Shown here: piece after piece, positions 309 to 14,369 of the stretch | Layout: the number at the start of each line of letters is the position of its first letter | How positions within the stretch are numbered: position 1 is the first letter of the stretch | Source: Pseudovibrio japonicus | GTDB taxonomy: Bacteria; Pseudomonadota; Alphaproteobacteria; Rhizobiales; Stappiaceae | Length of the DNA stretch: 64,000 nt | Direction of reading: 5' to 3' | Assembly: GCF_014651595.1 (NCBI RefSeq) | Contig: NZ_BMXE01000007.1 | Coordinates: 62,001-126,000 of the forward strand | Translations under genes and position numbers: made by a program | Notes under the pieces: model-generated | What the model saw: the letters and a program-made list of their open reading frames with translations, nothing else | The model's database searches: none | Told to the model about the DNA's origin: nothing

Positions 309-1475
309 CTAGCACTGTCGTGCTTTTGTGCAGGCCTGTGCAACGGCGCGGGCAATCACTTGCTCTTCGTTGGTGGGTATGATGAAGACGGGCACTGGGC
401 CTGTGCCGATTTCCGGTGCGTTGGCTTTGTTCTTTTCCGGGTCGATGGAGATGCCGAGGAACTCCAGTGGTTCGCACACTTTGGCGCGGACGTGTGCTGA
501 GTTCTCGCCAATACCTGCGCTGAAGACCAATGCATCAATGCCTTTAAGGCTGGCGGCCATGGCCCCCACTTCCCGGCGGATCTGGTAGCAGTAATAATTG
601 ATGGCCTGTTTGGCAAACAATGCGTCGGACTGCTCCAGCACACGCATATCGGAGGATTCCTCCGACAGCCCCAAGAGCCCGCTTTGGCGATAGATGATGG
701 CCTCGATCTCGTCAGCCGGCAGCTTTTTCTCCTGCATCAGGTAAAGCATGACTCCCGGGTCGAGCCGCCCGCATCTGGTGCCCATGGGCAGGCCATCGAC
801 GGCAGAAAAACTGGTGCTGGCGTTGACGGAGCGACCATTCTCCACCGCACACATGGAGGCGCCGTTGCCCAGATGGGCGATCACAAGGCGACCGTCCGCC
901 ACATGCGGGTACTCCCGGCGCATCTCGCTGCTGATGTAATCAAAGGAAAGGCCGTGGAAGCCGTAGCGGCGTACGCCTTCCTCATAAAACCGACGCGGAA
1001 TGGCAAAGGCGTCATTGGAGAAGGTGTGGCCGGCATGAAAAGCTGTATCAAAACAGCCGATTTGTAAGACACCGGGAAACACCTGCTTGGCTGCACGGAT
1101 GGTTGACAGAGAATAGGGTTGGTGTAGCGGCGCCAGCGGAACCAACTGTTCCAGCTCCTCCACCACATTGGTCGTCAGTTCCGTTGGTTTGTAAAACGCA
1201 TTGCCGCCATGGACGATGCGGTGGCCGATGCCCACTACAGAGCGGCCTTTCAGGTAGGGTTCCACTTTTGCGAAGATAGTGACCACTGCGCTGGCGTGGT
1301 CAACCTGCCCCAGCTCTTGCTGGATGTCCCCGTCAGGTGCCTGCATTTTCAAGCGCGCAGAAGGGCCCAGACGCTCAATACAGCCGGAGATGAACAGCTC
1401 GGGCTCTTCCATAGCTTTATACAGAGCGAACTTGACGGAAGACGATCCGGTGTTGAGCGTAAAATAGAATGTCAT
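309..1475 (-). CDS. ackA: acetate kinase (acyl kinase)
   Basis: Makes acetate and ATP from acetyl-phosphate and ADP in the cytoplasm, or the reverse. At 388 aa it is close to the usual ~400. The N-terminal signature LNTGSSSVKF is at residues 7-16 (N8) and the second motif GHRIVHGG at 84-91 (R86). FDTAFH carries the catalytic Asp (D143), GFHGLS carries H174, and GTRCGRLDPG carries R234. It is the last gene of the fabI / DUF3141 / MaoC-Pta / ackA operon, and its start overlaps the end of the Pta gene by 4 bp, implying coupled translation. Acetate is the default substrate. Butyryl-phosphate or propionyl-phosphate is possible given the upstream genes, but that is inference. Confidence 0.95.
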   Translation of the reverse strand: MTFYFTLNTGSSSVKFALYKAMEEPELFISGCIERLGPSARLKMQAPDGDIQQELGQVDHASAVVTIFAKVEPYLKGRSVVGIGHRIVHGGNAFYKPTELTTNVVEELEQLVPLAPLHQPYSLSTIRAAKQVFPGVLQIGCFDTAFHAGHTFSNDAFAIPRRFYEEGVRRYGFHGLSFDYISSEMRREYPHVADGRLVIAHLGNGASMCAVENGRSVNASTSFSAVDGLPMGTRCGRLDPGVMLYLMQEKKLPADEIEAIIYRQSGLLGLSEESSDMRVLEQSDALFAKQAINYYCYQIRREVGAMAASLKGIDALVFSAGIGENSAHVRAKVCEPLEFLGISIDPEKNKANAPEIGTGPVPVFIIPTNEEQVIARAVAQACTKARQC

Positions 1476-2857
1476 GCTTTCTGGCTCGCAGCGTAAAGAA
1501 GCGCAACAGCGCAGGACATCAGACGTGCCTGATCGTCATCAGCGCGGCTCGTGAGGATCACCGGACACCGTGCACCCATCACTACACCGCAAACCTGCGC
1601 GTGGGCGACATAGGCCAGCTCCTTGGCCAGCATATTGCCAGATTCCAGATTGGGTACAACCAAAACATCGGCCCGGCCTGCAACCAGAGAGGTGATGCCC
1701 TTTGTCACGGCCGCATCAACATCAATGGCATTGTCCATGGCCAGCGGGCCATCCACAATGCCCCCTTTGATCTGGCCGCGTTCTGCCATTTTAGAAAGGA
1801 TGGCCGCGTCCATGCTAGATGGAATTTTGGTGTTCACCGTTTCCACGGCAGACAAAATGCCTACCTTGGGCTGGTGCTCGCCAAGGGCCAGCGCCAGATT
1901 GATGGCATTTTGTACAATGTCTACCTTGGCTTCCAGATCCGGCGCTATGTTGATGGCCGCATCAGTTATGAAGAGCAGATGATCAAGGCTCGGCACGTCC
2001 ATGACAAACACATGGCTGAGCCGGTTGTCGGTGCGCAGACCAGAATCCCGCTTGACGATCTGAGCCAGCAGCACGTCAGTGTGCAACTGTCCTTTCATGA
2101 TTGATTGCGCCTTGCCCTCGCGAACCATGGCAACAGCCGTTGCTGCGGCCTGCGTATGGCTCTCTATATCGATGATCTGCAGATGCGCCAGATCCTTGCC
2201 GATCCGGTCAGCAGCAGCTTTAATCTTGCTCTGAGATCCGATCAGGATGGGCTCAATCAATGTATTTTCTGCTGCCAACAAAGCCCCACCCAGTGATTTG
2301 CGATCTTCCGGTGCGACAACTGCGGTTACCAACGGTGGTAATGGGCGGGCCCGCTCCAGCAGCCTGTCAAAATGTTCGTGGCTGCGTACGGTCAGACCGG
2401 GTAAGCTGACCGCCTTGGCAATTTGGCTGGAGCGCGGCGCAATTACCTCTGCTTCGCCCTCTACCAGCATCTGCCCATCGGCACGCTCCACAGTGGTTTG
2501 CAATGCCACCACGTAATCTGACAGCTTCTCTGTCACCTTGACCCGAGCAATCAGGTGGTCGCCTTCGTAAGCACGACCCAGGAAGCGCAGGTTCTGACTT
2601 TTATAGAGCGTTCCGGGACCAGGTAGTTGATTGCCCAGAACGGCAGAGATTAGACTTGCAACCCAAAGGGAGGGGGCAACGCCCTCAAAATCTCCGTCGC
2701 CGTCGATATCTTCTTTCGGTAGGTGTAGAGGATTGAGGTCGCCTGAGGCATGGGCCGAAACATACAAGTCATCCGCTGAGCAAGTGCGCTCATAGACCGC
2801 TTCCATGCCCACTTCGATCTTGTCGTACGGAGTATTCTTGTAGGTGATCGTCATCAC
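1472..2857 (-). CDS. MaoC-like enoyl-CoA hydratase / phosphate acyltransferase fusion
   Basis: A 461-aa two-domain protein. Residues ~1-140 are a MaoC/hotdog (R)-specific enoyl-CoA hydratase-like domain with the motif SGDLNPLHL; D40 and H45 match the hydratase Asp/His pair. Residues ~160-455 are a phosphotransacetylase/phosphotransbutyrylase (PTA_PTB) domain, converting acyl-CoA plus phosphate to acyl-phosphate. Proteins of this build are usually named bifunctional enoyl-CoA hydratase/phosphate acetyltransferase. It lies 6 bp after the DUF3141 gene and overlaps ackA by 4 bp. A start at the second Met (2854) is equally possible. In Sinorhizobium meliloti a related pta-ackA operon is, from memory, phosphate-stress inducible; I found no convincing Pho box ahead of this operon. 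Confidence 0.88.
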   Translation of the reverse strand: MMTITYKNTPYDKIEVGMEAVYERTCSADDLYVSAHASGDLNPLHLPKEDIDGDGDFEGVAPSLWVASLISAVLGNQLPGPGTLYKSQNLRFLGRAYEGDHLIARVKVTEKLSDYVVALQTTVERADGQMLVEGEAEVIAPRSSQIAKAVSLPGLTVRSHEHFDRLLERARPLPPLVTAVVAPEDRKSLGGALLAAENTLIEPILIGSQSKIKAAADRIGKDLAHLQIIDIESHTQAAATAVAMVREGKAQSIMKGQLHTDVLLAQIVKRDSGLRTDNRLSHVFVMDVPSLDHLLFITDAAINIAPDLEAKVDIVQNAINLALALGEHQPKVGILSAVETVNTKIPSSMDAAILSKMAERGQIKGGIVDGPLAMDNAIDVDAAVTKGITSLVAGRADVLVVPNLESGNMLAKELAYVAHAQVCGVVMGARCPVILTSRADDDQARLMSCAVALLYAASQKA

Positions 2858-2863
2858 GCTGCC

Positions 2864-5143
2864 CTAACCCCATTTGAACGTCTTTTTCAGACTGCGCCAG
2901 AGCTCCAGCGAGTTCGGCGGCATGTCCTCTTCTTTACCGATGATATGCATCAGAGCTTTGTAGGCAAGAGTTTTTTCTTTCTCGGTTTTTAGCAAAGTGG
3001 GTAAGGCATTGTAGCCAGCTTCCATCTCAAACCGGACGATCAAGGTTTGATCATGGATGAGGAAACTGCGCTCTTTCGGGTCCATAGATTTGAAGGGAGT
3101 CCATGTGGTCACCACTTCGTTAAACCGCTCCAGCTTTTCGCTGCGCACCTCATCCCGGGAATCGGCGATCATGAACACGATACGCACGATTGCAGCGGCG
3201 ACACCGCCTTTGTCGATCTTCTTAAGTGCATTCTGGATGCTGGTCAGGCTATGCAGATCCTGCATTGGCACCTTAGGTCGACGGAAGGACAGCGATTTGC
3301 CGTATTCTACGGCCTGTGGGGATGCCCAGAAGGTGAGGAAGCTGTTTTCAATCAATGCTTCACGCCAATCTTTCAGAGCATCCCAGCCATATTCGATTTG
3401 GTCTGCCATCAGCTCCTCCCAATAATGGAATGGTGTTTTGGCAAGGTTGGGTTTGCGGCTCTGCTTTACCGCAGTCGCCGCCATGGTGGGCCAGAACATG
3501 AAAGGATTGGCGGAAGCGAAGGCGCCATTTGTCAACCGCAAGGGGTGCAGCCCGCGTGTCACTTCACCGCTTTGCGAACTGTTCATGGTTTTCAGCATGG
3601 GACCAACGGTGCTGTCATACATGTCTTCCAGACTCTCGGACATGCGTGCAACGCCAGCAAAGGCTTTTTCTTCATTGCGTTCGCTGGTCTCTTCCAGCAT
3701 CTGATCGATGGTTTTGCGGGCAAAACTCACCTCAAATTTTGCATCGTTGCCTTTGCCCTTCTGCCGCTCAATCTGAAGCTTGTAGAGGCCGGGAGGCAGG
3801 GACTCGATGGTTTTTAGCGTCGAGGCCATCTGCGTATGTTCACGCCTTGCAACACTAGAGGATACAAAGATACCCAGATGTCCGACTGCATCATGCAGCA
3901 TATACAAAATGCGCTGGCCCAGGATCTCGATCTCTGACTCATCGCTATATGTGTCCGCAATCCAGTTGAGCGCCTGATCCGGCGGGGTAATGTTATCGCC
4001 AAAAGAGGAGAAGACAATGATGGGTGACTTGATGGTTTTCAGGTCAATGGGACGTCCCGGTTCCAGAAATGCCTCGTTCTTCGACAGTTTGTTGCCAATG
4101 AAAAGATTATCCAGAATCCAGCGGAACTCCTCTTCGGTCATGTAATAAAAACCGCTCCACCACTTCTGGAACTCCAGAAAGCGCTCATCGTCGCCATCAA
4201 TATTGGTGTAAAGGTCATAGTACTTGCGGAACCAGTTGCGACCCGGATTCAGCATCTCGAAATTCTGCACCAGATTGGCACCATCAAATACCCCATTGGC
4301 CAGATCAGCAGAAAGGAGCGCTGGCACGATGCCGCCTGTCAGTCCGGCGGAGTAACGCATGGGATCTTGCCCCATCGTACCACTCCAGTAGGACATGGGT
4401 GCGCCGTTGAGCACAATCGGGCCAACCAAATCCGGGTAGACGGCTGCGAGAATGGCGGCTGCCCAACCTCCCTGACAGTTACCAACCACCACTGGTTTTG
4501 AGCTTTTTGGGTGCCGTGCGATGACTTCACGCAGGAAAGCTGCCTCCGCATGGGTGACGTGAGCAACTTCCTGATGGGGCTCTGGCATGGGGTGGAAGGC
4601 GACGAAATAAACCGGGTGTCCACCGCGCAGGGCAACACCTACCTGACTGTCATTTTTAAATCCGCCAATGCCAGCACCATGGCCAGCGCGGGGGTCAATA
4701 ATCACATAGGGGCGCTTATCGTCAAAGGTCTCAGTGCCTTCAGGCGGAATAATCTTTAAGAGCATGTAGTTACAAGGGCGCGGAAGATTGCGGCCTTCAA
4801 CAATAACCTCATAATCATAAATCAGAACCGGCGGACAACCCTTGGCCAGATGATCGTAGTAGTTGTCACTGCTTTCGCGCAGGGCATCCATGGTCAGGAT
4901 GGCGCGTTCACTGGATTCTTTTATGTAATGCGCCCAGGCATCCATAAGCTTTTTAGGCGTGTCATAGGGGACCCAAGAGGCAGCCAGTGCTTCACCCTTG
5001 GTTCTGGACTTTTCCTGTTTTTTCTGGAAGTCATTCATCAGACGCGTTGTGCGCCGTGCGTTGGCGACCTGCAGAAACTTGGCCTGTTCCTCAACTGCGT
5101 CAAAGTACTGGGCAGTTTGATTGGTAAAGCGTTCTACTTGCAT
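2864..5143 (-). CDS. DUF3141 protein, PHA-synthase-like alpha/beta hydrolase
   Basis: A 759-aa cytoplasmic protein of the DUF3141 family. Its core is an alpha/beta hydrolase related to polyhydroxyalkanoate synthases. The nucleophile box is GNCQGG with Cys223, the GxCxG lipase-like box of PhaC, instead of the serine of ordinary hydrolases. Later segments SSFGDNITPPD and HDAVGHLG supply plausible Asp and His partners. Residues ~1-100 are charged and helical, and the C-terminal third is helical without a recognisable domain. The gene sits between fabI (19 bp) and the MaoC-Pta fusion (6 bp). The function of DUF3141 is not established to my knowledge; acyl transfer or ester/thioester hydrolysis on hydroxyacyl substrates is inferred. 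Confidence 0.82.
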   Translation of the reverse strand: MQVERFTNQTAQYFDAVEEQAKFLQVANARRTTRLMNDFQKKQEKSRTKGEALAASWVPYDTPKKLMDAWAHYIKESSERAILTMDALRESSDNYYDHLAKGCPPVLIYDYEVIVEGRNLPRPCNYMLLKIIPPEGTETFDDKRPYVIIDPRAGHGAGIGGFKNDSQVGVALRGGHPVYFVAFHPMPEPHQEVAHVTHAEAAFLREVIARHPKSSKPVVVGNCQGGWAAAILAAVYPDLVGPIVLNGAPMSYWSGTMGQDPMRYSAGLTGGIVPALLSADLANGVFDGANLVQNFEMLNPGRNWFRKYYDLYTNIDGDDERFLEFQKWWSGFYYMTEEEFRWILDNLFIGNKLSKNEAFLEPGRPIDLKTIKSPIIVFSSFGDNITPPDQALNWIADTYSDESEIEILGQRILYMLHDAVGHLGIFVSSSVARREHTQMASTLKTIESLPPGLYKLQIERQKGKGNDAKFEVSFARKTIDQMLEETSERNEEKAFAGVARMSESLEDMYDSTVGPMLKTMNSSQSGEVTRGLHPLRLTNGAFASANPFMFWPTMAATAVKQSRKPNLAKTPFHYWEELMADQIEYGWDALKDWREALIENSFLTFWASPQAVEYGKSLSFRRPKVPMQDLHSLTSIQNALKKIDKGGVAAAIVRIVFMIADSRDEVRSEKLERFNEVVTTWTPFKSMDPKERSFLIHDQTLIVRFEMEAGYNALPTLLKTEKEKTLAYKALMHIIGKEEDMPPNSLELWRSLKKTFKWG

Positions 5144-5162
5144 AATCTACCTCAGTGCCTGC

Positions 5163-5927
5163 CTATCCGATGATGCGGTAACCGCCGTCGATGGGGTGAA
5201 CCACACCAGTAATGTTTCGTGCTTCGTCGCTGGCCAGAAAGGCCGCATATGCGCCAATATCTTCGATACTGGCAAGTTTGCGAGTAGGAGAACGTTCTGT
5301 TGCATCCGCCAGCATTTCATCGAAACTGGCAATCCCGCTTGCGGCCCGCGTGGCCAATGGACCAGGCGAGAGCGCATTGACAGAGATGCCCTTCTGGCCC
5401 AGTTCTGCCGCTACATAGCGCGTGGTGCTTTCCAGTGCGGCTTTGACGGGTCCCATAATATTGTAATGGCTGACAACCTTTTCCGAGCCGTGGAATGTCA
5501 CGGTCATAACGCTGCTGCCGGGAGGCATCAGCAGCTCTGACTTGCGGATCAGCCGTAAGAAGGAGTGAACAGAGATGTCCATGGCGATGGAAAAGCCTTC
5601 TGCCGAGCAATCGACCACACGGCCATGAAGATCTGCCAGTGGGCAATAGGCAATGGAATGCAGCAGAATATCTAGGGATCCCCAGACCTGATTGATTTTC
5701 TCATAAAGGACATCGATCTGGTCCGGATCTGTCACATCGAGCGGTGCAAAAATGGCTGCATCAGCTTCTTCTGCCAGAGGTGCAACATGCTTTTTCGCTT
5801 TGTCATTCAGGTATGTAAGTGCAAGTTCTGCGCCCTGTGCCTTCATGGCTTTGGCGCATCCCCATGCAATGGACTGGTTGTTTGCCACCCCAACAATAAG
5901 GGCCTTCTTGCCCTTTAATGAAAACAT
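5163..5927 (-). CDS. fabI: enoyl-[acyl-carrier-protein] reductase, FabI type
   Basis: An SDR-fold NADH-dependent enoyl reductase of 254 aa, the FabI length. The dinucleotide-binding segment GVANNQSIAWGCA is at 13-25. The catalytic pair is Y155 (SHYNIMGP) and K162 (VKAALE). Where E. coli FabI carries Tyr146, this protein has Phe145 (TVTFHGSEK), which may affect substrate choice. It heads the operon with DUF3141, MaoC-Pta and ackA, so this copy more likely serves acyl-CoA metabolism than housekeeping fatty acid synthesis. That role is inference; the family call is firm. The start at 5927 gives a normal N-terminus (FSLKGKKALIVG). Confidence 0.85.
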   Translation of the reverse strand: MFSLKGKKALIVGVANNQSIAWGCAKAMKAQGAELALTYLNDKAKKHVAPLAEEADAAIFAPLDVTDPDQIDVLYEKINQVWGSLDILLHSIAYCPLADLHGRVVDCSAEGFSIAMDISVHSFLRLIRKSELLMPPGSSVMTVTFHGSEKVVSHYNIMGPVKAALESTTRYVAAELGQKGISVNALSPGPLATRAASGIASFDEMLADATERSPTRKLASIEDIGAYAAFLASDEARNITGVVHPIDGGYRIIG

Positions 5928-6123
5928 GTGGTCACTACCCTGTTAGTTGAACCCTGTTCTTGAAAAGGAAAACAACAAGCATAGAAATAGCTATACAGAG
6001 GAGAGAAGGAAAACGAAGCTACGAAAGCTAGTAAATGAATTGGTAGGTCTGAACATTAAATCAGAGATTGTTCGTGGGTCTGAGTAAAAGGCTAATAAAA
6101 CTGAATTTGATGCTGGTTCAGGC

Positions 6124-11867: not shown

Positions 11868-12932
11868 ATGCCCGCCGACTCCAGCTTGCCAGACCAACCG
11901 GAAAGCTCCGGTCCATTCTTTTCCAGATGGATGAGAGAGGGCCGCGAGATCCTTCCCGGCCTGATTATCGCTACGGTGATCGCGATCGCCGCGCGCTATG
12001 TTTCAGAGCATCAGGGTGGGCCCGTGATGCTCTACGCCCTACTGATTGGCATGGCGGTGCACTCCATTTATGAGGATGGCAGCTGTCAGGCGGGCCTCAG
12101 CTTTGCGGCGAAGAAAGTGCTGCGCTTGGGCGTTATCCTGCTGGGCCTGCGGGTATCTTTTTCGCAGATCCTTGATCTGGGCTGGCATACGCTTGGGTTG
12201 GTCATTCTCTCCGTTCTGGGAATGTTGCTCGTTGGCGTGTTGGTAGCGCGCTTACTGGGGCGTTCTGCCAGTTTCGGATTATTGACAGGTGGTGCCGTCG
12301 GTATCTGCGGCGCATCGGCTGCACTGGCTATTTCATCTGTGCTGCCAAACACCAGAGAAAACGAGCAAAATACGCTGTTTACGGTGATTGCTGTTACGGC
12401 ACTCTCCACGCTGGCCATGATCCTTTATCCAAGCATTGGTCAGATGTTTGGCCTTACCGATGTGCAGCTCGGCATCTTTTTCGGAGCGACCATCCACGAT
12501 GTGGCACAAGTGGTGGGCGCCGGGTTTGCAGTCTCAGATAGCGCGGGCGAAACCGCTACTGTTGTCAAACTCATGCGGGTGATGATGTTGCTGCCGGTCA
12601 TCTTCATCATCTCGTTCTGGTCGACCCGGTGGTTGCACGCAAAAAGCAAAGGTACGACAGCCGCACTGGAGGGAGATGCACCCGTTCCCTACTTCGCTTT
12701 CGGGTTTGCCGCACTCGTTGTGGTCAACTCATTGGGATGGATACCAGAGACCCCGCGCCAAGTGCTCGTTGATGCCTCCACCTGGTGTCTCGTCATCGCA
12801 ATCTCCGCATTGGGCGTCATGACTACCCTAAAGACCCTCGTCAGCCTCGGCCATCAGCACCTGTTTGTGGTCGTTGCCGAAACATTGGTGCTGGCTGGCG
12901 GAATTATTCTGGCGCTCAAGTATCTGGTGTAG
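11868..12932 (+). CDS. YeiH/UPF0324-type putative sulfate (sulfonate-derived) exporter
   Basis: A polytopic membrane protein of 354 aa with about ten hydrophobic helices, of the YeiH/YadS (UPF0324) family. Hallmarks include YALLIGMAVH, the glycine-rich TGGAVGICGASAALAISSVLP and GATIHDVAQVVGAG. Members have been proposed to export sulfate formed from sulfonates, but biochemical proof is limited. AAGGA lies at proper spacing before the ATG. No sulfonate genes or LysR partner adjoin it. An unusual hairpin follows at 13025-13049. Confidence 0.82.
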   Translation: MPADSSLPDQPESSGPFFSRWMREGREILPGLIIATVIAIAARYVSEHQGGPVMLYALLIGMAVHSIYEDGSCQAGLSFAAKKVLRLGVILLGLRVSFSQILDLGWHTLGLVILSVLGMLLVGVLVARLLGRSASFGLLTGGAVGICGASAALAISSVLPNTRENEQNTLFTVIAVTALSTLAMILYPSIGQMFGLTDVQLGIFFGATIHDVAQVVGAGFAVSDSAGETATVVKLMRVMMLLPVIFIISFWSTRWLHAKSKGTTAALEGDAPVPYFAFGFAALVVVNSLGWIPETPRQVLVDASTWCLVIAISALGVMTTLKTLVSLGHQHLFVVVAETLVLAGGIILALKYLV

Positions 12933-13024
12933 CGGGGCGTGTTGCGTATGCAGGCGCTTTAGGAAGGTCTCCCTGCACACCTAAACATGATGGTTGTTGG
13001 GAACTTTCGCCCCTACGCAAAACT

Positions 13025-13049
13025 CCTGAATTGTCTGATGCAATTCAGG
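13025..13049. repeat. perfect inverted repeat in yeiH-frmA gap
   Basis: CCTGAATTG (13025-13033) and CAATTCAGG (13041-13049) form a 9-bp stem with a 7-nt loop. There is no T-run after it on the plus strand. It could be an operator for the formaldehyde genes or a weak terminator for the YeiH gene. Confidence 0.45.
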
Positions 13050-13181
13050 GCGCTGCGGGTTATAAGTCGGGGATGCGAGTTTGGCAGTGACATGCGGGAG
13101 GCGTGGGCACTGCTCTAGTTATTTTCTGGGGAGGACCCGCCAATGTCGGCGGGCCTGTAACAAGACGTATAGGTTCACATT

Positions 13182-14291
13182 ATGGATACACGCGCCGCTG
13201 TTGCTTATAAAGCCGGAGCCCCTCTTTCCATCGAGACAGTTCAGCTGGACGGCCCCCAGCCCTTTGAGGTGCTGGTTGAGATCATGGCCACCGGCATTTG
13301 CCATACGGATGCCTTTACGCTTTCCGGTGATGACCCGGAAGGGCTGTTCCCTGCCATCCTTGGCCATGAAGGCGCTGGCATTGTGCGCGAAGTGGGCAAG
13401 GGCGTGACCTCGCTGAAGCCGGGGGATCACGTGATCCCGCTTTACACCCCGGAATGCCGTGAGTGCGAATACTGCCTCAACCCGAAGACCAACCTGTGTC
13501 AGTCCATCCGTACGACACAGGGGGCTGGCGTAATGCCGGACGGAACAAGCCGTTTTTCCATCAATGGTGAGAAGATTCACCACTACATGGGCACAAGCAC
13601 CTTCTCCAACTTCACCGTTCTGCCAGAGATCTCTCTTGCGAAGATCCGCAAGGACGCGCCGTTTGATAAGGTCTGCTACATCGGTTGCGGCGTGACCACC
13701 GGCGTGGGCGCTGTGATCAACACGGCAAAGGCAGAGCCGGGCTGTAAGGCCGTTGTATTCGGCCTTGGCGGTATTGGGCTTAATGTTGTGCAGGGTCTGC
13801 GCTTGATCGGTGCTGATCAGATTGTTGGCGTTGATATCAACCCTTCCAAGAGAGCGCTTGCTGAACAGTACGGCATGACAGACTTCGTCAACCCGAAGGA
13901 AGTGGAAGGCGATCTTGTGCCTTACCTTGTTGACCTGACAGGTGGCGGCGCGGACTACTCTTTCGAGTGTATCGGCCATCCATCTACCATGCGTCAGGCG
14001 CTCGAATGCTGTCACAAGGGGTGGGGCGAGAGCATCATCATTGGTGTTGCCGGTGCGGGTCAGGAAATTTCCACCCGTCCGTTCCAGCTGGTCACAGGCC
14101 GCTCCTGGCGTGGCACGGCCTTTGGCGGCGCGCGTGGTCGTACTGACGTACCGAAGATTGTGGACTGGTACATGGATGGCAAGATCGACATTGATCACAT
14201 GATCACCCACACCATGCCGCTGGATGAGATCAACAAGGCGTTTGATCTGATGCACGAAGGCAAGTCTATCCGTTCGGTTGTGACGTTCTAA
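13182..14291 (+). CDS. frmA: S-(hydroxymethyl)glutathione dehydrogenase / class III alcohol dehydrogenase
   Basis: Oxidises the glutathione adduct of formaldehyde to S-formylglutathione with NAD+. At 369 aa it has the family length. Catalytic zinc ligands are C40 (GICHTDAF), H62-E63 (GHEGAG) and C169 (GCGVTTG). The structural zinc site is C92, C95, C98 and C106. The NAD-binding GLGGIG is at 194-199. It is followed by fghA 78 bp later, completing glutathione-linked formaldehyde detoxification. It also works as an S-nitrosoglutathione reductase in many organisms. No frmR-type repressor is adjacent. Confidence 0.95.
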
Positions 14292-14369
14292 GTGGTAACT
14301 GAGATTTTGGATTGTTAAGGTCTAAGCGGACATAGGCTCTGCTTAGGCCTTCGTTTTGAAAGAGCGAAC

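Follow-up and report, generated by a model that had tools for sequence, protein, structure and literature searches.

A DUF3141 operon with a MaoC-phosphotransacylase fusion, an acetate kinase family gene and a FabI paralog in Pseudovibrio japonicus, and its link to polyhydroxyalkanoate

The operon and its proteins

The window analysed here is a stretch of 64,000 nucleotides from Pseudovibrio japonicus (contig NZ_BMXE01000007.1, positions 62,001 to 126,000), and we describe a minus-strand operon at its positions 309-5927. Open reading frame (ORF) calls give four genes, encoding a FabI paralog, a DUF3141 protein, a fusion of a MaoC domain to a phosphotransacylase (PTA) and a protein of the acetate kinase family (AckA), with intergenic gaps, in gene order from fabI to ackA, of 19, 6 and -4 bp. 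Gene families were assigned by profile matches to Pfam and NCBIfam.

5163-5927, minus strand: FabI paralog, PRK07533 subfamily, 254 residues (NF005717/PRK07533, 399 bits, cut-off 337)
2864-5143, minus strand: DUF3141, a PhaC-like alpha/beta hydrolase, 759 residues (PF11339, 704 bits, cut-off 29.7)
1472-2857, minus strand: MaoC + PTA_PTB fusion, 461 residues, GTG start (NF006045/PRK08190, 628 bits, cut-off 282)
309-1475, minus strand: acetate/propionate kinase family protein, PRK07058-like, 388 residues (TIGR00016, 348 bits, cut-off 293)
5928-6060, minus strand: operon promoter region, a block common to seven Pseudovibrio, without an FNR/FixK site

A PTA of the PRK11890/PRK08190 kind, an AckA family gene, a PRK07533 FabI and a PhaC-like polymerase gene are all adjacent at this locus. 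The ORF coordinates and profile matches agree with the four-gene operon and gaps given in a preliminary description of the sequence, which had also noted a PhaC-like Cys box in DUF3141.

Polyhydroxyalkanoate (PHA) synthases of the PhaC type carry a G-x-C-x-G-G-like box within a Cys-Asp-His enzyme. Both elements occur in the DUF3141 protein, where the box reads GNCQGG at Cys223 and the partners are Asp383 and His422, so that the Cys box of the preliminary description holds. The triad is kept in 54 of 54 DUF3141 ORFs scoring above 400 bits, one of them a 482-residue piece, in a count that left out the lower-scoring ORF pieces of broken copies in loci L006 and L100; the glycine that follows the glutamine of the box is alanine in many relatives. 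None of the DUF3141 proteins scanned matches PhaC_N (the window protein at E 1e-3), and the class III PhaC model TIGR01836 gives the window protein 47.9 bits against a cut-off of 365. Nor does it match the model for PhaZ, the intracellular depolymerase of polyhydroxybutyrate (PHB; TIGR01849, E 1e-3); a separate PhaZ is encoded elsewhere in the same genome (648.5 bits). A domain search returned no match for the N-terminal 103 residues, and no known domain besides PF11339 for the C-terminal part. At L006:8001-10278 and L100:7331-9812 DUF3141 is broken into several open frames, which may reflect frameshifts, decay or sequencing errors.

The fusion protein comprises a MaoC (R)-hydratase-like domain at about residues 5-150 and a PTA domain at about residues 158-460, for which the nearest solved structures are the (R)-hydratase 5cpg and the phosphate butyryltransferase 7vg9, respectively. 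Taken alone, the MaoC domain scores 24.4 bits in Pfam, slightly below the cut-off of 27. The PTA domain scores 314.6 bits to the phosphate butyryltransferase model TIGR02706, under its cut-off of 410.5, versus 70.4 bits to pta, and among solved relatives it scores 235 bits to 7vg9 versus about 50 to true Pta. The Asp and His of the hydratase motif, whose catalytic role is known from PhaJ, are retained in the window protein as Asp40 and His45. Across 24 fusions this Asp is kept in 12 (seven Pseudovibrio among these) and replaced by Asn in 11, and the remaining fusion (L079) gave no usable alignment over the motif; the MaoC step is missing or likely inactive in many relatives.

The FabI protein has the Y-x6-K motif, but bears Phe where the two other FabIs of the same genome carry the first Tyr of the canonical FabI pair. 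Those two proteins are 46% and 39% identical to it and score 335.8 and 298.0 bits to PRK07533, under the cut-off, whereas nine further cluster FabIs reach 385-443 bits; these scores set the operon's FabI apart as a dedicated paralog. The genome also holds a second MaoC-PTA/ackA pair (L127:6750-9378, contig C8), in which Asn replaces the catalytic Asp of MaoC and Met the Phe179 of AckA. A third MaoC-PTA gene shares 46% identity with that of the window and lies directly upstream of a true PhaC (L128:5271-8793, contig C1). Given these other FabIs and further MaoC-PTA and ackA genes, the copies in the operon are not the sole ones.

The kinase matches the acetate/propionate kinase model at 348 bits and the butyrate kinase model TIGR02707 at 51.6 bits, where the cut-off is 289. 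Its pocket was compared over 40 cluster copies (seven from Pseudovibrio; L131-L136 left out) in the numbering of M. thermophila AckA. Val93 is kept in 38 copies, Leu122 in 40 and Phe179 in 39, while Pro232 has become Ala in 36, Asn124 Gln in 35 and Thr182 Leu in 39. The window protein keeps Val93, Leu122 and Phe179 and has Ala in place of Pro232; the other AckA of the genome retains Val93, Pro232 and Asn124. Acetate determinants of AckA are Val93, Leu122 and Pro232 (PMC4390882), two of which are thus present in the window protein. The Salmonella enzyme does not use butyrate, though it accepts acetate, propionate and formate; its Val93 and Ala181 have been modelled as clashing with butyrate (PMC3475010). 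The pocket of the cluster kinases is altered on one side and kept on the other, and so does not point to a single specificity.

Conservation of the cluster and its link to polyhydroxyalkanoate

We compared 46 DUF3141 loci, 8 from named genome contigs and 38 from other genomes, the window's own genome included; two genomes contribute two loci each. All four kinds of gene (DUF3141, PTA, AckA and FabI) are found in 31 of the 46 loci (23 of 38 without the named-contig loci), and for this reason we do not regard their co-location as chance. PTA stands alone in 16 of these 31 and is fused to MaoC in 15. Five gene orders occur, or seven when a fused PTA is counted apart from a separate one, one of the five being a divergent arrangement seen in two loci, and FabI lies at a distance in two (6.4 kb in L079, 2.3 kb in L093). 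Retention of the same partners through these rearrangements argues for one function, and the co-conservation that the preliminary description had set as a check is thereby found. Gene content is intermediate in three of the 46 loci, and no separate MaoC ORF resembling that of the window was detected in the loci compared at E 1e-5. The closest named relatives are six Pseudovibrio loci, with DUF3141 identities of 78-89%.

A link between the module and PHA is well supported. In a phylum sample, where DUF3141 was scored as present at E up to 1e-100, PhaC_N occurs in 27 of 27 genomes with DUF3141 versus 188 of 398 overall (hypergeometric 5.6e-10 by genome, 2.7e-6 by genus); two of the 27 DUF3141 copies carry stops. 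The corresponding figures in a class sample are 12 of 12 versus 175 of 289 (0.0021 by genome, 0.010 by genus), with 43 of 55 genomes that have weak or partial DUF3141 matches excluded from the 12, and three DUF3141 genomes are common to both samples. A plasmid of Pseudomonas veronii carries phaR, phasin, DUF3141, pta, ackA, fabI, phbB and phbC in one cluster, a permease and an AraC regulator separating fabI from phbB, and in L075 and L108 (one a Halomonas plasmid, one another genome) a PhaC, identified by similarity, adjoins DUF3141-ackA-pta. PhaC stands in place of DUF3141 in L106, and in Paraburkholderia the genes MaoC-PTA-ackA(-IS4-)fabI come after a true PhaC; the PhaC that adjoins the third MaoC-PTA gene of the window's genome is 52% identical to this Paraburkholderia PhaC. 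We read PhaC and DUF3141, from their positions, as apparently filling similar places, and this exchange, the co-occurrence and the P. veronii cluster together bear out the connection to PHA that the preliminary description had drawn.

Other features were seen around the operon and its relatives. Downstream of the operon lies a convergent LysE-family gene (L101:7588-8238) whose end is inside the window, and 269 bp upstream is a pyridoxamine-oxidase-like gene. A Roseibium plasmid has a short DUF3141 type of 592 residues (L109:6845-8623) without pta, ackA or fabI nearby, next to copper-transport, CBS and ppk2 genes. Around the clusters at L102:16779-20013 and at L106:1-4861 and 11977-14331, the neighbouring genes form a set of low-oxygen or stress character; they include those for CBS-domain proteins, adhP, phosphoketolase, cytochrome bd oxidase and P-type ATPases. 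In Azospirillum, a 158-residue protein without a Pfam family is encoded between DUF3141 and pta (L135:10327-10803).

Regulation in relatives and the window promoter

In a phaR mutant of B. diazoefficiens, pta blr3457 and ackA blr3458 are strongly induced; they belong to the predicted operon blr3456-blr3459, and two PhaR boxes are predicted upstream of blr3456, at -97 and -92 (PMC10888616). The gel-shift targets named in the part of that work available do not include blr3456. Five genomes of one genus, taken as Bradyrhizobium, have the order DUF3141-pta-ackA-fabI, and one of them (L076) has a double PhaR box at -97/-92 upstream of DUF3141, 13 of 17 bases alike to the printed box. From this gene order and this double box we infer that blr3456 probably encodes DUF3141, and derepression of what is likely the same operon in the phaR mutant adds to the support for a link to PHA. 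Shuffling the L076 region 2000 times gave a 17-base match as good in 34 cases at any place and in none at -97; because the box is GC-rich and common, the match supports the identification and does not prove it. Of the other upstream regions of the genus, three (L077, L078 and L082) lack any overlapping pair, and the fourth, L080, shows a comparable one at -127/-122.

Pta and AckA of strain NGR234 are 118- to 228-fold up in bacteroids (PMC3732241). The replicon pNGR234b carries DUF3141-pta-ackA-fabI, with TTGACGCAGATCAA 79 bp upstream, and these are probably the genes induced. The FixK/FNR box TTGAY-N4-RTCAA is present upstream in 5 of the 46 loci versus 0.07 in shuffles (maximum 2), and further sites of this type lie at -252 in L106 and at the start codon, as called, of L082. 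Over the window, two-mismatch FNR/FixK matches are at chance level (87 versus 83.5 expected). The window promoter has no TGCN3GCR site; its positions 5928-6040 form a block containing TATAGCTATT that is strongly conserved among seven Pseudovibrio. A Pho-box-like pattern occurs in none of the 46 upstream regions, which says little, the pattern being ad hoc and strict; the S. meliloti operon has been reported to be under PhoB control (Summers et al. 1999, via PMC8231600). Low-oxygen control is thus supported in rhizobia and not in this window.

Interpretation and comparison with known systems

Gene identities, conservation, catalytic motifs and the genomic link to PHA are evident from the sequences, and PhaR control, PhoB control and bacteroid induction come from papers on relatives. 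On this basis we propose, with about even confidence, that the operon is a PHA-cycle-linked module for the disposal of acyl-CoA as acid with gain of ATP. Being PhaC-like in its Cys-Asp-His triad, DUF3141 would have (R)-3-hydroxyacyl esters or thioesters as substrates and would work on the PHA granule or in its vicinity. The MaoC domain could, in this species, form crotonyl-CoA from (R)-3-hydroxybutyryl-CoA, and the dedicated FabI paralog would reduce an enoyl thioester at the expense of NADH, the simplest candidate being crotonyl-CoA. PTA and the kinase would then convert a short acyl-CoA through acyl-phosphate to acid and ATP, so that the module would shed carbon and electrons and gain ATP when respiration is limited. 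The direction of flux and the substrates are those we would predict, and the product may be acetate, butyrate, 3-hydroxybutyrate or a mixture.

Several observations weigh against this proposal. DUF3141 stands alone in 12 of the 46 loci (the L088 locus is truncated close to the end of its contig), and clusters without DUF3141 exist, as fabI-MaoC/PTA-ackA and as MaoC/PTA-ackA. The co-occurrence statistics ignore phylogeny. The strict FixK/FNR pattern was not found upstream in 41 of the 46 loci, four of the five loci that bear it belong to one genus, and the window promoter lacks it. The identity of blr3456 with DUF3141 is indirect, and the main text of an S. meliloti PhaR study does not mention ackA, acetate kinase, pta or fabI (PMC12542648). 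AlphaFold models, built with eight close sequences aligned, were too poor for use, with a mean confidence (pLDDT) of 43 for DUF3141 and 51 for MaoC-PTA.

The preliminary description had proposed a specific course, from (R)-3-hydroxybutyryl-CoA to crotonyl-CoA by MaoC, to butyryl-CoA by FabI with NADH, to butyryl-phosphate by PTA and to butyrate plus ATP by AckA. Its arm from acyl-CoA to acid and ATP is supported; butyrate as the acid, an outward flux from PHB and an action of DUF3141 on hydroxyacyl esters are predictions. This course employs all four genes and suits a PTA that is nearer to phosphate butyryltransferase (315 versus 70 bits; 235 versus about 50 among structures), the replacement by Ala of Pro232, an acetate determinant, in 36 of 40 copies and the MaoC Asp and His retained in Pseudovibrio. 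We nevertheless consider it rather unlikely, given a kinase of the acetate/propionate and not the butyrate family (348 versus 52 bits), Val93 kept in 38 of 40 copies with its modelled butyrate clash in Salmonella (PMC3475010), MaoC absent from 16 of the 31 four-gene loci and Asn in place of its Asp in 11 of 24 fusions. In the parts of the related literature available, no such operon is described as producing butyrate, and in two papers the authors take the phaC version to serve the use of acetate or propionate for PHA (PMC8231600, PMC8686332). That opposite direction, with AckA and PTA running in reverse, acyl-CoA entering the PHA cycle and DUF3141 or PhaC polymerising it, is what those authors propose for phaC-pta-ack-fabI clusters; it appears quite improbable here, as it costs ATP and gives an enoyl reductase no clear role, bacteroid induction and FixK boxes fit a gain of ATP better, and Cobetia MC34, without ackA and the fused pta, still produces PHB from acetate.

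Acetate overflow with acetyl-phosphate control, in which PTA-AckA would act on acetyl-CoA, FabI would serve membrane lipids under stress and DUF3141 would be a granule-side accessory, is somewhat unlikely. It accords with PhoB control of the S. meliloti operon (Summers et al. 1999, via PMC8231600), with the reading of B. diazoefficiens pta-ackA by its authors as a path from acetyl-CoA to ATP (PMC10888616), with the retained Val93 and with MaoC-PTA-ackA pairs that occur alone, but FabI, PTA and AckA are dedicated copies in a genome with a second MaoC-PTA/ackA pair and two more FabIs, and the altered AckA pocket is left unexplained. PTA and AckA might instead work directly on (R)-3-hydroxybutyryl-CoA and release 3-hydroxybutyrate and ATP from PHB, which would account for clusters without MaoC and would agree with the Ptb-like PTA and the change at position 232; as this leaves FabI without a role, we regard it as very unlikely.

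If acid and ATP are indeed the outputs of a PHA-linked module, the question is raised whether PHA-storing bacteria, including nitrogen-fixing bacteroids, gain ATP under oxygen shortage by fermenting PHA carbon to acid. It is a sharp question because of the co-occurrence with PhaC, the position in PHA clusters, the exchange of PhaC and DUF3141, rhizobial control by PhaR and FixK, and the remodelled AckA pocket. Should such fermentation occur, DUF3141 would gain a function, and the view of PHB in low-oxygen symbiosis would change. In its widest form, which we put forward with considerable doubt, many PHA-storing Pseudomonadota would ferment their own polymer, previously unrecognised, with DUF3141 feeding (R)-3-hydroxyacyl-CoA to a hydratase, a dedicated FabI-type crotonyl-CoA reductase, a Ptb-like transacylase and a remodelled AckA to give butyrate or 3-hydroxybutyrate and ATP at low oxygen under PhaR/FixK switches.

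The cluster type itself is already published, in S. meliloti, Burkholderia and Halomonas/Cobetia versions (PMC8231600, PMC8686332). The ORF-pta-ackA-fabI operon of S. meliloti has the same gene kinds as the operon described here, but its PTA is without MaoC, its gene order is different and PhoB control is reported for it (Summers et al. 1999, via PMC8231600). On pSymA of S. meliloti ml28 we find the order DUF3141-pta-ackA-fabI, with FabI at 436 bits and FabI, PTA and AckA matching the NCBIfam models of the window proteins, and we infer that this locus is the operon of 1999. Enzymes of the S. meliloti operon reportedly showed acetyl activities in the 1999 study. The phaC-(phaJ-pta)-ackA-fabI clusters of Burkholderia sensu lato, groups D1 and D2, likewise bring a MaoC-PTA fusion, AckA and FabI together, but their polymerase is PhaC and not a protein named DUF3141, and their authors read them as acetate use for PHA (PMC8231600). 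The phaC1-fabI-bi-pta-ackA cluster of Halomonas and Cobetia similarly unites fabI, a fused pta and ackA, with phaC1 instead of DUF3141, and in H. bluephagenesis phaC1 lies elsewhere (PMC8686332). In B. diazoefficiens blr3456-blr3459, pta and ackA again follow a hypothetical gene, probably DUF3141, in a predicted operon, although no MaoC is expected there and PhaR control rests on expression and a predicted box (PMC10888616). Titles and abstract openings on PHB-to-butyrate conversion, Pseudovibrio PHB and this cluster contain no such route, and in the literature available in part we found no agreed function for a cluster type in print since 1999. The clostridial Ptb-Buk system couples Ptb to a Buk-type kinase. 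Its chemistry would be the same if the window enzymes were butyryl-specific, the window PTA being Ptb-like and its kinase of the AckA and not the Buk type.

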